Assembly (NCBI GenBank): GCA_025056455.1
Contig: JANWVY010000007.1
Span: 1 to 64,000 of the forward strand
Reading direction: 5' to 3'
DNA: 64,000 bases
From: Bryobacteraceae bacterium
GTDB lineage: Bacteria > Acidobacteriota > Terriglobia > Bryobacterales > Bryobacteraceae
The notes beneath the pieces are model-generated. The model did not search any database. It was not told the origin of the DNA and saw only the letters and a program-made list of their open reading frames with translations. Made by a program: the position numbers and the translations under genes. Below are positions 33,831-39,276 of this stretch, in pieces. Position 1 is the first letter of the stretch, and the number at the start of each line of letters is the position of its first letter.

Positions 33831-34301
33831 ATGCACTCAATCCGCAGGCCCACTTGGTTGATCACAATCGCCCTTCTAATTCCCGTGTGGGCATCGGCCA
33901 AACCCAATTTCAGCGGAGAGTGGGTCATGAACGCCGCCAAAAGCGATTTTGGTCCGCTCCCCGCCCCATCGCGAATGGTTCGCACGATCCAACACGATGA
34001 GCCAAACCTGCACATCAAGAATCAGCAGACAGGCGCGCAAGGCGAGATCACTACAGAGTTGAAATACACCACCGACGGCAAGGAATGGACCAACACAACG
34101 CGCGCTGGTGAAGTGCGAGGAACCTGCAAATGGGAGGGCGAGACTCTGGTCGTTGAATCTCGGCGCACGATTCAGTCTATCGAAATTGTACAGACCGACC
34201 GCTGGACGCTCGGCGAAAACGGAAAGACGATGAAGGTAGAATCTGTTCTAAAGACTCCGCAAGGGGAATTTAGTCTCAGAATCGCTTTTGATAAACAATA
34301 G
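33831..34301 (+). CDS. Small secreted protein, paralogue A
   Basis: This 156-residue protein has a signal peptide ending in WASA. The mature part begins KPNFSGEWVMNAAKSDFGPL and contains regularly spaced beta strands with a C-terminal GRWTL-like block (DRWTLGENGKTMKVES). The pattern suggests a small beta-barrel or lipocalin-like fold; I do not recognise a named family. It shares start, strand pattern and end with the next gene, so the pair arose by tandem duplication. The two are 26 bases apart and presumably one transcript. Function unknown. Confidence 0.78.
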   Translation: MHSIRRPTWLITIALLIPVWASAKPNFSGEWVMNAAKSDFGPLPAPSRMVRTIQHDEPNLHIKNQQTGAQGEITTELKYTTDGKEWTNTTRAGEVRGTCKWEGETLVVESRRTIQSIEIVQTDRWTLGENGKTMKVESVLKTPQGEFSLRIAFDKQ

Positions 34302-34327
34302 CCATTATTTTTGATACGGGGACACCT

Positions 34328-34807
34328 ATGATGACTCGACGACTTGCATCTGTAGCGATGGCCGGTGTGCTGGCCTTCGTGGTTGCGGCGTTGCCTGCTT
34401 CGGCAAAACCGAATTTCACCGGTGTGTGGAAGCTCGTGGCGGACAAAAGTGATTTCGGACCGCTACCAGTTCCTGAAAAACTGGAGCAAAAGATCGAACA
34501 CAATGATCCGGAAGTGAAGGTTGTGGCGACGCAGTCCACTCAAAGCGGAGAGATGACGGCCGAGCTCAATTACAACACCGAGGGCAAGGAGACCACCAAC
34601 CAGTTCCGGGGCCAGCCGATGAAGTGCGTTGCCAAGTGGGATGGTGACGCGTTGACGGTGGATTCGAAGATCGATTTTCAGGGCAACGAAATCACCCTGA
34701 ACGATCGCTGGACGCTGAGCGAAGACGGCCAAACGCTAATCCTGAATCGAAAAATCAACAGCCCGCAGGGCGAGATGGAAATGAAAATCGTTCTCGCCAA
34801 ACAGTAG
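34328..34807 (+). CDS. Small secreted protein, paralogue B
   Basis: This 159-residue protein has a signal peptide ending LPASA. The mature part (KPNFTGVWKLVADKSDFGPL) matches paralogue A closely at the start. Shared features are the SDFGPLP motif, the TELKY/AELNY strand, the DRWTL block and a C-terminal PQGE(F/M) strand. The middle has diverged: A has a cysteine at RGTCKWEG and B at MKCVAKWDG. No catalytic motif is visible. The tight spacing to paralogue A suggests coexpression from the promoter near 33793. Confidence 0.78.
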   Translation: MMTRRLASVAMAGVLAFVVAALPASAKPNFTGVWKLVADKSDFGPLPVPEKLEQKIEHNDPEVKVVATQSTQSGEMTAELNYNTEGKETTNQFRGQPMKCVAKWDGDALTVDSKIDFQGNEITLNDRWTLSEDGQTLILNRKINSPQGEMEMKIVLAKQ

Positions 34808-34844: not shown

Positions 34845-36341
<1,497 letters not shown>

Positions 36342-36362
36342 CGCCCACTCCGGCCGGGCGGC

Positions 36363-36383
36363 GAAGCGGTTTCCTAGCGCTTC
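36363..36383 (+). terminator. Weak hairpin after thiC
   Basis: GAAGCG-GTTTCCTAG-CGCTTC forms a 6-base stem with a 9-base loop, 22 bases past the thiC stop. Only a short T-containing stretch follows, so this is at best a weak intrinsic terminator. Confidence 0.3.
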
Positions 36384-36409
36384 TGTTCAGTGATAGGCTG
36401 TGAGTCGCG

Positions 36410-38437
36410 ATGGGGTTAGCCGCCTTTTTGCTTGGCCTAGCAGCCAGTTGTTCTGGCGCGAGCGTCCCAGTTGACCGGTCGTTCTACCGCCCGGGCCCGG
36501 TTACCGTAACCGAAGACGGCGACTTGTTTCGCATCCACTGGAAGGATGAACTTGCCCGCAGCTGGATTGCAGAATTCACTGTTGAACCGCGGAAACCCTT
36601 GATCCGCGCGATTACGTTGAATGGGCGCACGGTGGTGGAAAATGCCCAGCCACTGTATCGCTGCGCCGTGGGCAAACGGCGGGGAGGATGGGATCAATTC
36701 TTCGATCTGCCTCCCTCCCATCCAGATGGCACTCGCCAGTTCCTGGGGGAACTAGCCGTGCGGGGCGTGAAACTACGCACCGAAGGCAACCGCCTCGAAA
36801 TTGCCTTTGATGGCTTTCGCATGGGAATCTTCGAAGGCGCCATCGCCTTTACGTTTTTCCCGGGAACTCGATTCCTTCAGCAACAAGCGCTTGCTTCGAC
36901 TCGCGAGCCAGATACGGCTTACTACTATGACGCCGGCCTTCGCATGGCCTCGCCACGCAGTGTGCGCCCTGGCGGAAACATGGAAGCGTCGATCTTCTTT
37001 TACGACACCAACGGCGAATTCCGCGCCGCACCCGGCCAGGGTCCGGAGCGCACGCCGGTAGCGGTACGCTACCGTACGCTGGCAGCGCAACCCTCAGAAG
37101 GGACAATCGCCGTATTTCCCCCTCCCCACCAGTACTTCTTTGCCCGCGACTTCACCACTAACATGGGCTATCTATGGCATTCCGTTTGGCGGGGCCACGT
37201 CTCGCTCGGAATTCGCCAGCTGCCGGACGACAATACGGCCTATTATCCGTGGATCAACGCGCCGCCTGGCTCCTTGCAACGCATGAGCGTGTTTTACTTG
37301 ATGGATGATCGGGAGCCCAAAGCCCTACTCGAAGACGTCTTACGCTTCACCAACCGGGACCAGTTTGAACCTTTGCCCGGATATCAAACGGTGACCACCC
37401 ACTGGCATTTTGCTTACGCCGTACAGGCCATGAACAAAGGCTTCGACTGGACGCCCCCATTTAAAACCGTTCTCCAGACCATGGGGGTGAACGCTGCCAT
37501 CATCATGGATTTTCATGGGGACGGCCACCCGTCCGACGTCACGGAGATCCGGCTTGCAGAATTGGACGCTCTATTTCAGGCCTGCCGCCGGCAGTCTGAT
37601 TCTCACTTCTTGCTGATTCCTGCCGAGGAGGCAAACGTCCACTATGGCGGACACTGGGCGGTGGTTTTTCCGAAGCCAATTTACTGGATGATGCAACGGC
37701 CACAGGGCACCGAATTTGTGAGCCCCCACCAGAAGTATGGCCGGGTCTACCGGACCGGGAATGCCAATGAAATGCTGGAATTGATTCGAAGGGAAAAGGG
37801 ATTCGCCTATCAGACGCATCCTCGGACCAAGGGCTCGACAGGCTATCCGGACAAAATCCGGAGCGAGAGCTACTTCCTTGATTCGACTTACTTTGGCGCC
37901 GGCTGGAAACAGATGAACTCTGATCTTTCCTCTCCGCGCCTCGGCGAGCGGGCCCTCATTTTGCTCGATGACATGTGCAACTGGGGGTTGAAGAAGCGGC
38001 TGCTAGCTGAAGTGGACGTCTTCCAAATTGACTCGACACACGAGCTGTATGCCCATATGAACGTCAACTATGTACAGTTGCCAGCGTTGCCTTCCTTCGA
38101 CCAGTACGGGGCAGTTTTGGAGGCTCTGGCGCAAGGACGTTTTTTCCTTACGACGGGGGAGGTCCTTCTACCGGAGTATTCTCTACACGGTTCAGATGGC
38201 GGGCTTCGTGTCACAGCAACAGTGCAAAACCGTTTCCCGTTGCAATTTGCCGAAGTGGTTTGGGGTAATAAAGACGGCAGCACGCAGCGGAAAATCATTC
38301 CGCTCACGATGACCGGCCCGTTTGAGAAAAAGCGCTATGAGTGGGAAGTGGAAGCACCAGAGTGGAGATGGGCTCGCCTTGCGGTGTGGGACATTGCGGC
38401 CAACGGGGCAATGACCAATCCAATCTGGAGGCAATGA
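36410..38437 (+). CDS. Exported protein with a PHP-like phosphoesterase region
   Basis: This 675-residue protein has a hydrophobic N-terminus (MGLAAFLLGLAASCSGAS) that could be a signal or lipoprotein signal. The first 300 residues are beta-rich and unrecognised. From about residue 325 there are metal-ligand-like histidines and acids in the spacing of PHP hydrolases: THWHFAY, IIMDFHGDGHPSD, LIPAEEANVHYGGHW, AYQTHPRT and IDSTHELYAH, ending in GRFFLTTGE. The PHP match is by pattern only. The gene overlaps the next by ATGA, so the two proteins are translationally coupled. Confidence 0.65.
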   Translation: MGLAAFLLGLAASCSGASVPVDRSFYRPGPVTVTEDGDLFRIHWKDELARSWIAEFTVEPRKPLIRAITLNGRTVVENAQPLYRCAVGKRRGGWDQFFDLPPSHPDGTRQFLGELAVRGVKLRTEGNRLEIAFDGFRMGIFEGAIAFTFFPGTRFLQQQALASTREPDTAYYYDAGLRMASPRSVRPGGNMEASIFFYDTNGEFRAAPGQGPERTPVAVRYRTLAAQPSEGTIAVFPPPHQYFFARDFTTNMGYLWHSVWRGHVSLGIRQLPDDNTAYYPWINAPPGSLQRMSVFYLMDDREPKALLEDVLRFTNRDQFEPLPGYQTVTTHWHFAYAVQAMNKGFDWTPPFKTVLQTMGVNAAIIMDFHGDGHPSDVTEIRLAELDALFQACRRQSDSHFLLIPAEEANVHYGGHWAVVFPKPIYWMMQRPQGTEFVSPHQKYGRVYRTGNANEMLELIRREKGFAYQTHPRTKGSTGYPDKIRSESYFLDSTYFGAGWKQMNSDLSSPRLGERALILLDDMCNWGLKKRLLAEVDVFQIDSTHELYAHMNVNYVQLPALPSFDQYGAVLEALAQGRFFLTTGEVLLPEYSLHGSDGGLRVTATVQNRFPLQFAEVVWGNKDGSTQRKIIPLTMTGPFEKKRYEWEVEAPEWRWARLAVWDIAANGAMTNPIWRQ

Positions 38438-39276
38438 CGCGGATGTTGATCATCGATACGCACGCCCACATCTATTCGCCCGATGAGCGAAAGTATCCGC
38501 CCATCGAAAAACCGCTCCGGGTCCCTGGCGGCAAAGGTTCTCTCGAAGATCTACGCCAAGAAAGCGCCGAACATGGGGTGCGTGGCGTGTGCCTGATTCA
38601 AACCAGCACCTTCTATCGCTTCGACAACCGCTACGTTTGCGATTCTGCTCTTTCCGCGAAGCCGTGGGCAGCGGGAGTCTGTACGCTAGATCCCGATGAT
38701 CCCCACAGTCCGGGGCTGTTGAAGCACTACGTGCAAAAGTTCGGCATCCGCGGAATCCGGTCGATCCCAGCCAAGGACGGCCGACTTGACCATCCTGGCG
38801 TGCGCGCACTTTGGAAAGCCGCCCTAGAATCAGACATCGTTGTCAATGTGTTGATCGGGCGCGAAAAGGCGCCAGAACTAGCGCGGTTGCTGGGGCAATT
38901 CTCCCGGTTGCCTGTGGTCTTGGATCACTGTCTGAATTTGAAGGCCGGGCCTGAGATGTCGCAGACCCTGGATGCCGTCTTGCGCTTAGCGAGATTCCGG
39001 AATCTCCATGCGAAGCTCACGTTTCTCGCCACGGGCAGTCTCAGCGGCTATCCTTGTGACGACCTTCACGGTCCGTGCTTGAAAATTGTTCAAGCCTACG
39101 GCGCGGAGCGCTGTGTTTGGGGAAGCGATTTCCCGCTCGAGCTGTGGGCGCCGCGTCTCACCTACGCTGAGCATTTGCGCATCTTTCAACGGGACTTACC
39201 GTTGCCGGAGGAAGACCGAAAAAAGATTCTCGGCGAGACGGCGCGCAGACTTTGGTTCCGCTCAGCAAGCTTTTAA
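38434..39276 (+). CDS. Amidohydrolase family (amidohydro_2-like) TIM-barrel hydrolase
   Basis: This protein of about 280 residues begins near MLIIDTHAHIYSPDE, giving the first metal-binding HxH. Later blocks are GVRGVCLIQTSTF, LPVVLDHCLNL and CVWGSDFPLELWAPRLTYAE, which supplies the last Asp. Members include lactonases, decarboxylases and other metal-dependent hydrolases acting on small cyclic or acidic substrates. The ATG at 38434 forms an ATGA overlap with the upstream PHP-like gene. The two may act on one substrate in turn. Confidence 0.85.
   Translation: MTRMLIIDTHAHIYSPDERKYPPIEKPLRVPGGKGSLEDLRQESAEHGVRGVCLIQTSTFYRFDNRYVCDSALSAKPWAAGVCTLDPDDPHSPGLLKHYVQKFGIRGIRSIPAKDGRLDHPGVRALWKAALESDIVVNVLIGREKAPELARLLGQFSRLPVVLDHCLNLKAGPEMSQTLDAVLRLARFRNLHAKLTFLATGSLSGYPCDDLHGPCLKIVQAYGAERCVWGSDFPLELWAPRLTYAEHLRIFQRDLPLPEEDRKKILGETARRLWFRSASF

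Follow-up and report, generated by a model that had tools for sequence, protein, structure and literature searches.

Gene 1 (36410-38437, forward strand) of the window, by which we mean the whole 64,000-nt stretch of Bryobacteraceae DNA analysed here, is predicted to encode an exported metallohydrolase (P0001, 675 aa) in which a galactose mutarotase-like domain precedes a CehA/McbA-like PHP domain. We put at about 70% the reading that this gene was inserted between thiC and an amidohydrolase gene (gene 2, product P0002) and that the abutment of genes 1 and 2 is incidental. The insertion would have taken place in the window lineage and brought the two reading frames together, any translational coupling being a by-product. 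A tight overlap of open reading frames need not mean a functional pair; in this case it masks a linkage of thiC to the amidohydrolase gene, one that may merit testing in its own right. The combination of a mutarotase-like domain with a PHP hydrolase points to little-explored exported hydrolases of common soil bacteria; gene 1 or its paralogues are present in 51 of the 101 genomes searched, the window's own included.

Gene order and boundaries at the thiC junction

Both open reading frames listed in the first-pass annotation (one of 675 aa at 36410-38437, the other following it and ending at 39276) are present and represent real genes; all features given here lie on the forward (+) strand. Upstream is thiC (HMP-P synthase, 34935-36341; PF01964, E 6.1e-195), and the 68 nt that separate gene 1 from the thiC stop (36342-36409) would form the left edge of the inserted stretch. 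In 9 of the 11 same-genus genomes thiC is directly followed by the gene 2 orthologue (66-72% identity for the orthologues beside thiC), and the distance from thiC stop to gene 2 start is -1 to 9 nt in those nine and 2101 nt in the window, with gene 1 inside it. A gene of a 159-aa family upstream of thiC is common to four of those loci. Genes were called with a codon-scored ORF caller, which replaced one that lost amidohydrolase anchors to antisense ORFs; anchors that the codon-scored caller missed (one in the thiC loci, three in the paralogue loci described below) were placed by tblastn. From this gene order we infer that gene 1 entered the thiC-gene 2 junction, rather than having been lost elsewhere; the supposed coupled pair then looks like a feature of this locus rather than a two-enzyme system that is conserved. 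A literature search of limited scope returned no publication on thiC-amidohydrolase linkage in Acidobacteria.

Gene 2 (38434-39276, likely start 38443) had been read as an amidohydrolase gene, and the profile match bears this out (PF04909, residues 7-275, 112.6 bits where the gathering cut-off is 26.4). Its product is closest to lactonases and matches PF04909 lactonase families over its full length, so that P0002 is a probable lactonase-type hydrolase. The ATGA overlap on which the first-pass annotation based translational coupling does exist at 38434-38437; its use as the start of gene 2 could not be confirmed. It is probably not the start used, because homology and Shine-Dalgarno spacing favour 38443. 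Homology in relatives begins at residue 4, which is the ATG at 38443, and the matching codon in 19 other loci is ATG in 16, with GTG, TGC and GCT once each. An in-frame stop lies 6-21 nt upstream of that codon in 13 of the 19, and a further in-frame start lies upstream in 7. Near its 3' end gene 1 contains a Shine-Dalgarno-like GGAGG (38427-38431), whose distance to the ATG at 38434 is 2 nt and to that at 38443 11 nt. A paired role deduced from the ATGA alone was rejected, since the gene 2 starts of relatives point to 38443. No Rfam-listed RNA (for example a TPP riboswitch) matched at the gathering score near thiC between 30000 and 45000, a promoter scan around both genes gave no promoter-like site, and a terminator scan of the same region gave 6 terminator-like sites against 5.7 expected.

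Conservation of the gene pair

The first-pass annotation had remarked that coupled pairs of this kind often share a substrate; it had named co-occurrence of the pair as a check and non-adjacent homologues as grounds for refutation. A gene 2 homologue was found beside gene 1 orthologues at 0 of 53 other loci within the flanks obtained, and thiC likewise at 0 of 53. The 53 flank searches cover 49 loci at E 1e-10, 44 of them with at least 1 kb downstream, and 4 at E 1e-5; the set leaves out two fragment matches of orthologue-level identity (G079:C61 and G051:C281), and a few of its loci lie at contig ends. We thus rejected a conserved PHP-amidohydrolase gene pair, and the shared substrate is left unsupported: homologues are not adjacent, gene 2 neighbours thiC in most same-genus genomes, and the predicted compartments of P0001 and P0002 differ.

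A functional pair of another kind seems unlikely to us: an exported CehA-like hydrolase would release a product, the cytoplasmic lactonase-type enzyme of gene 2 would open it after uptake, and the insertion would have been kept because the two steps are sequential. The window genes are co-directional and abutting, and a weaker, family-level link between amidohydrolases and CehA/McbA genes survives: at 10 of 20 loci examined, 15-60 nt separate a CehA/McbA gene from a gene 2 paralogue whose product shares 48-55% identity with P0002, with a second CehA 24 to 967 nt away in 7 of those 10. Adjacency in the window may therefore not be pure accident. The 20 loci, however, are 20 of 30 listed and were chosen, not blindly, after the co-location was known, and seven loci whose neighbourhoods were displayed share an aminotransferase neighbour and amount to about one event; the association is largely that of one conserved cluster. 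No CehA match lies within 1 kb of P0002 orthologues at any of 20 loci by a home-made CehA profile, which misses P0001 itself and so scores the window as a miss. The neighbours of gene 1 elsewhere also bear on the sequential scheme. P0001 follows a PQQ dehydrogenase gene in five same-genus genomes, a cytochrome c gene precedes the dehydrogenase in the four with enough DNA, and a TonB receptor comes after P0001 in three; this setting suggests periplasmic sugar or alcohol oxidation that could yield lactones, but a PQQ dehydrogenase is an unspecific neighbour, with 18 matched stretches in the window genome and none on the window's contig. The absence of an amidohydrolase homologue from all 53 flanks and the difference in predicted compartments weigh against sequential action as well.

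More speculative, and in our estimate improbable, is a recurrent two-compartment pathway: CehA-type PHP hydrolases, exported and present in many copies in these soil Acidobacteriota, would generate lactone-type products, and a cytoplasmic clade of PF04909 lactonases dedicated to them would open these. Genomes of the order hold up to 29 CehA/McbA matches each. If such a pathway were real, the window would represent an independent second origin of that partnership, through insertion of a mutarotase-PHP gene by a thiC-linked lactonase gene.

The order thiC-gene 1-gene 2 might instead be ancestral and lost in the other same-genus genomes. In a tree of gene 1 built from the window copy, 3 paralogues and 25 of the other 53 orthologue loci (row threshold 380 aligned residues), the window copy falls outside the main same-genus P0001 clade and could thus be an older copy; the same placement also fits insertion, and the tree does not trace the copy to a source. 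Yet an ancestral order requires that the other lineages lost gene 1 from the junction while having a copy at another site, as against one insertion, and neither thiC nor an amidohydrolase gene occurs in the flanks obtained for the 53 other loci. We regard it as highly improbable and retain insertion as the preferred reading.

Predicted domains, candidate metal ligands and probable export of P0001

P0001 matches no Pfam family at E up to 1, and its 21 aligned orthologues match nothing better than E 0.058, so the gene may go unnamed in annotation. Residues 1-21 (36410-36472) form a signal-peptide-like region. A hydrophobic signal-like N-terminus is present in 42 of the 43 proteins judged, P0001 among them, a count inflated by the picking of start codons for hydrophobicity (three partial loci were set aside, and for one locus no candidate start was available). 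The signal region of P0001 contains no Lys or Arg. P0001 is probably exported, periplasmic or secreted, and gene 2 encodes no signal-like N-terminus.

In the AF2 model (mean pLDDT 84.4) the N-terminal domain (residues 22-313, 36473-37348) falls below pLDDT 50 at 241-253. In VIA-align this domain reached Z 16.4 to a PL26 lyase and 13.9 to B. subtilis GalM, and Z 13-16 across PL26 lyase, GalM, GH36 and GH38 entries, which places it among the beta-supersandwiches of the galactose mutarotase-like superfamily. The first-pass annotation had described this part of about 300 residues as unknown, which holds at the level of sequence recognition only, the fold being a known one. Its suggestion of a new carbohydrate-binding or sensor domain likewise stands in part: a mutarotase-like fold makes a link to carbohydrates reasonable but does not support calling the domain new.

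The PHP-type ligand patterns noted earlier were recovered in the domain at residues 314-581 (37349-38152): HWH 331/333, DFHGDGH 367-373, EE 406/407, GGH 415, THP 470 and DVF 536. The candidate metal ligands H331, H333, H369, E406/E407, H415, H470 and D536 are invariant in 22 orthologues. P0001 thus carries the HxH and further His/Asp/Glu of the PHP superfamily, with an incomplete final DxH that reads DVF. In a mixed set (P0001, 8 orthologues and 13 paralogues at 33-40% identity) H331, H333, D367, H369, D371, E406, E407, H415, H470, E534 and D536 are also invariant. Loss of catalysis in the PHP part of P0001, with its mutarotase-like half serving as a sugar-binding or sensory module, would fit the last DxH site (DVF at D536, DTY in the 13 aligned paralogues) and a mean column identity of the N-domain (0.69) near that of the PHP domain (0.72). 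The invariance of these eleven residues from H331 to D536 across orthologues and paralogues speaks against it, as does the lack of the same final His in two clear CehA/McbA genes of the window's own genome, and we think degeneracy quite improbable.

A PHP fold for the C-terminal part had also been anticipated. With the domain modelled alone, the top seven VIA-align rows are PHP metalloenzymes (Z 14.2-9.4), and the best unrelated row has Z 8.7. Four of the seven are PHP by title; the other three are PsfC (7rty) and two EndoQ rows, which are PHP enzymes as well. The whole model gave Z 14.4 to 3e38_B and 14.2 to 2anu_D, and VIA-align on the model thus assigns P0001 to the PHP barrels (distorted TIM-type). 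Foldseek ranks a glycopeptidase first for the domain model (E 9.2e-4) with 3e0f as best PHP entry (E 2.7e-3), and for the whole model it places the PHP entry 7rty at rank 45 (E 3.4e-4); with PHP ranks this weak, the fold call leans on the second look by VIA-align. Two stretches that lie within or close to probable ligand loops, 370-372 and 540-545, have an AF2 pLDDT below 50. Neither P0001 nor three profiles, searched by sequence against solved structures, found a relative, the lone match of one profile search being an unrelated receptor (E 0.042). Residues 582-675 (38153-38434) are modelled as a C-terminal beta-sandwich, for which VIA-align rows over about 268-361 of the domain model (Z 7-8.7) include fibronectin-III modules and GH2 beta-sandwiches. 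Gene 1, on the predicted model, is a PHP-fold metallohydrolase gene and a distant CehA/McbA relative.

Under our preferred reading, P0001 would be exported to the periplasm or outside, where the CehA/McbA-related PHP barrel would bind metal via these His and acidic residues and activate water for cleavage of an ester-type bond in its substrate; such metal-dependent hydrolysis is what the model suggests. The mutarotase-like domain would probably hold a carbohydrate or glycosylated substrate against the barrel. P0002 would be a cytoplasmic PF04909/TIM-barrel hydrolase of a lactonase-rich branch, whose usual same-genus partner is thiC.

Comparison with known systems

By profile comparison P0001 is a relative of CehA/McbA and not a member by the NF038032 cut-off: it scored 47.5 bits (48.8 in the genome search) against a cut-off of 80, and five paralogues scored 24.8-41.4 bits. 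Homology to NF038032 over the PHP part is clear (E 1.6e-12, profile positions 54-313 of 315), the profile matches 21 of 22 gene 1 orthologues (best E 7.6e-17), and profile-profile comparison to CehA/McbA gave E 2.6e-7 (probability 93%) and E 3.6e-6 (87%). The NF038032 match starts at residue 395 of P0001 and the profile-profile alignments at 435 and 386, past 331/333, so likeness to CehA at the HxH rests on fold and not on sequence. A literature search of limited scope found no publication on P0001 or on a mutarotase-PHP combination, nor any that joins CehA with a PHP domain.

The carbaryl and carbofuran hydrolases CehA/McbA resemble P0001 in having a PHP domain behind an N-terminal part of about 300 residues, with the CehA HxH at 313/315. 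In CehA, His313, His315, His453 and His495 are reported to be important for hydrolysis (PMC8292978), and their HxH...H...H order is that of H331, H333, H415 and H470 in P0001. Profile alignment adds the GH...HP motifs, a GR-F segment and a C-terminal beta domain. P0001 differs in its mutarotase-like N-domain; TolB/PD40-type propellers are found instead in the CehA genes that were tested next to a paralogous amidohydrolase. With the predicted phosphoesterases BVU_3505 (3e38) and TM0559 (2anu) P0001 shares the PHP fold, at Z 14.2-14.4 and Z 12.8-14.2 respectively across 198-220 residues, and 14-16% identity; both are small, their chains having 342-343 and 220-222 residues, and lack a mutarotase-like domain. 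GalM, parts of rhamnogalacturonan lyases, GH36 and GH38 have the same beta-supersandwich as P0001 residues ~28-313; these galactose mutarotase-like entries differ in showing 5-12% identity, no Pfam match to P0001 and, by title, no PHP partner. For gene 2, the PF04909 lactonases compared (2-pyrone-4,6-dicarboxylate hydrolase, 4-sulfomuconolactone hydrolase and L-fucono-1,5-lactonase) are matched over its full length, but its scores to lactonase equivalogs, 31.6 bits where the cut-off is 500 and 25.1 bits where it is 400, indicate that they are not the same enzymes.

The gene pair and the start of the amidohydrolase gene

The 675-residue frame of P0001 (36410-38437, forward strand) is followed in the same direction by that of P0002, with a possible start at 38434 and its end at 39276, in a genome of 4.98 Mb (29 contigs, 98.9% complete). 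The first-pass annotation had read the two as a pair coupled through an ATGA overlap. Both frames and the ATGA exist, the P0001 stop overlapping one ATG of the P0002 frame, but ATG 38434 is probably not the start used. The homology of relatives to P0002 begins at residue 4, which is ATG 38443; at 19 other orthologue loci this codon is ATG in 16/19, GTG in 1, TGC in 1 and GCT in 1, an in-frame stop lies 6-21 nt 5' of it in 13/19, and a further-upstream in-frame start of some kind occurs in 7/19. A GGAGG at 38427-38431 is 11 nt from 38443 and 2 nt from 38434, the better spacing being that for 38443. Homology, upstream stops and GGAGG spacing suggest that translation of P0002 probably begins at 38443, 5 nt past the gene 1 stop and not inside gene 1.

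The identification of the second gene as an amidohydrolase was borne out by Pfam (PF04909, 112.6 bits). The nearest named models, 4-sulfomuconolactone hydrolase and L-fucono-1,5-lactonase, both score far under their cut-offs, and the closest solved structures are the 2-pyrone-4,6-dicarboxylate hydrolases 2ffi (putative) and 4d8l. The best prediction for P0002 is a lactonase-type reaction.

The thiC-amidohydrolase junction and the distribution of the pair

P0002 orthologues (63-72% identity) were compared at 20 loci, the window's included. In 9 of the 20 (L085-L088, L091, L093, L095, L096 and L103), all of the same genus and accounting for 9 of its 11 other genomes, thiC (HMP-P synthase gene) stands directly upstream of the orthologue. 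The thiC genes (34935-36341 in the window) are 79-90% identical over the stretch compared, and thiC forms a tight unit with the PF04909 amidohydrolase in the same-genus relatives: the distances from thiC stop to residue-4 codon are -1, 7, 3, -1, 9, 9, 3, 9 and 9 nt. In the window the distance is 2101 nt. Same-genus genome G007 carries thiC and the amidohydrolase on different contigs, and G010, also of this genus, has no close amidohydrolase orthologue; no thiC was found near the orthologue in the DNA compared at the other 10 loci (other genera or G007). Upstream of thiC, window positions 33831-34807 encode two tandem related small proteins (156 and 159 aa), each of which has a hydrophobic N-terminus. 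The 159-aa protein (34328-34807) has no Pfam match, and a gene of its family is also upstream of thiC in 4/9 loci, with 0-2 called genes between. A limited literature search found no thiamin-related role for a thiC-linked PF04909 amidohydrolase.

The simplest account is that P0001 (about 2.1 kb) would have been inserted at the thiC-amidohydrolase junction; among the genomes seen, P0001 is inside this unit only here. The P0001 tree does not resolve the window copy, which branches near other genera and not within the clade (support 100/100) that unites 7 same-genus copies, so that it may have been acquired from outside the genus.

P0001-like genes are found in 51/101 genomes (own genome and paralogues counted) and in 11/297 genomes of a thin draw of the phylum (own counted). 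Among 24 named loci with a P0001 match, 23 bear Acidobacteria-type titles (Bryobacterales, Solibacter, Terriglobia etc.) and one is titled Acidimicrobiia. The copy in the latter (VFZE01000013.1, L068) matches that on contig C13 of genome G042, which is assigned to the same family as the window; the record is probably mistitled. We compared the flanks of 49 distinct P0001-orthologue loci (44 with 1 kb or more downstream, 27 with 5 kb or more on each side) and of 4 loci from elsewhere in the phylum, two fragment matches being left out. No P0002 homologue was detected in the flanks of the 49 at E 1e-10 or 1e-5, or of the 4 at 1e-5; thus the pair occurs only in the window among the loci seen. Cooccurrence, to which the first-pass annotation had looked for a pair sharing one substrate, was found at 0/53 other P0001-orthologue loci, and the pairing of P0001 and P0002 is ordinary.

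Neighbours, probable export and a possible functional link

In 5 same-genus genomes (L066, L067, L069, L073, L076) a PQQ-dehydrogenase gene of the same orientation ends 7-54 nt before P0001. Upstream of the dehydrogenase there is a CBM9-cytochrome c type gene in 4/5, the remaining contig ending too early to tell, and in 3 genomes P0001 is followed by a TonB receptor. This setting would suit a periplasmic role with compounds of sugar or alcohol type, but the other 44 of the 49 orthologue loci do not show it; cytochrome c, PQQ dehydrogenase, P0001 and TonB receptor possibly form a periplasmic oxidation cluster. A signal-like N-terminus is present in 42/43 judged proteins (P0001 and 42 orthologues, starts picked for hydrophobicity), and the maximum 10-residue hydropathy is 2.48 for P0001 versus 1.04 for P0002. 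P0001 is probably exported, but its signal region contains no Lys or Arg.

A functional link between a CehA-type hydrolase and the amidohydrolase is unlikely, and is kept alive by the co-location of P0002 paralogues (48-55% identity) with CehA/McbA genes. These lie 15-60 nt apart in 10/20 loci examined (L215, L218, L219, L224, L227-L232; for example L232:4796-12714), a second CehA being 24 to 967 nt away in 7 of the 10; the 20 loci are 20/30 rows of that identity, chosen after some co-location had been seen, not blind. The hydrolases are of propeller type where tested and a class-V aminotransferase often adjoins, one order being propeller-CehA, propeller protein, amidohydrolase (other strand), second propeller-CehA, class-V aminotransferase and outer-membrane beta-barrel protein. 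However, the aminotransferase neighbour is common to 7 such loci displayed, so these count as about one event, and a CehA match within 1 kb was found at 0/20 P0002-orthologue loci with a profile that is blind to P0001 itself. CehA/McbA matches occur in 41/41 genomes of the order, up to 29 in one (fragments counted), and are greatly multiplied across its genomes.

Predicted fold and candidate active site of P0001

P0001 has no Pfam match with an E of 1 or lower, and its 21 aligned orthologues give none below E 0.058. The NCBIfam CehA/McbA metallohydrolase model matches P0001 at E 1.6e-12, although the 47.5 bits fall short of the 80-bit cut-off, and it matches 21/22 orthologues with an E of no more than 0.01. 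A model built by AlphaFold2 on 22 sequences (mean pLDDT 84.4, pTM 0.88) was compared by VIA-align. The N-terminal half, residues ~28-313, had been called unrecognised, which holds for Pfam; its fold resembles the known galactose-mutarotase-like supersandwiches, with a Z of 16.4 to PL26 rhamnogalacturonan lyase (247 residues, rmsd 4.3), of 13.9 to the B. subtilis mutarotase and of roughly 13-15 to GH36 and GH38 entries. The whole model also aligns with PHP protein 3e38_B over residues 315-672 (Z 14.4 for 220 residues at rmsd 3.9) and with 2anu_D over residues 323-584 (Z 14.2 for 200 residues at rmsd 3.7). The C-terminal PHP fold proposed earlier was upheld by modelling this part alone (mean pLDDT 85.3): the top seven rows are PHP, namely 3e38 (14.2), 2anu (12.8), 7rty (12.6), EndoQ (12.2 and 12.0), 3o0f (9.8) and 3e0f (9.4), where we take 7rty and EndoQ to be PHP proteins. 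The rows that follow have a Z of at most 8.7, and many are beta-sandwiches aligned to the last ~95 residues. Foldseek alone gave much weaker PHP support, and the fold assignment therefore rests on VIA-align and sequence evidence. We concluded that P0001 joins a mutarotase-like domain to a divergent, CehA-like PHP hydrolase, a modestly new architecture.

The PHP-type metal-ligand patterns noted at first sight are also retained, since H331, H333, D367, H369, D371, H373, E406, E407, H415, H470, E534, D536, D541 and H544 are invariant in 22/22 orthologues. When P0001 and 8 orthologues are taken together with 13 paralogues that are 33-40% identical to P0001, only H373, D541 and H544 among these residues vary. 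Profile-profile comparison with 14 CehA/McbA proteins of these genomes, of which the window's genome supplied two, gave E 3.6e-6 (probability 87%) and 2.6e-7 (93%). The THP motif and the GRFFLTTGEVLL segment are aligned, as is the P0001 DVF motif with the ED/TD motif of CehA/McbA, and the GGH motif is aligned in the second comparison. HxH 331/333 lies outside both alignments and the NCBIfam match, and its putative pairing with the CehA HxH rests on fold and order. We infer that the candidate ligands H331, H333, H415 and H470 bind metal. In P0001 the last canonical DxH reads DVF; its His is also missing from two of the genome's clear CehA/McbA genes. A review (PMC8292978) names His313, His315, His453 and His495 of CehA as important for hydrolysis and His467, His477 and His504 as PHP-domain histidines of McbA; the CehA order HxH...H...H agrees with H331, H333, H415 and H470 of P0001.
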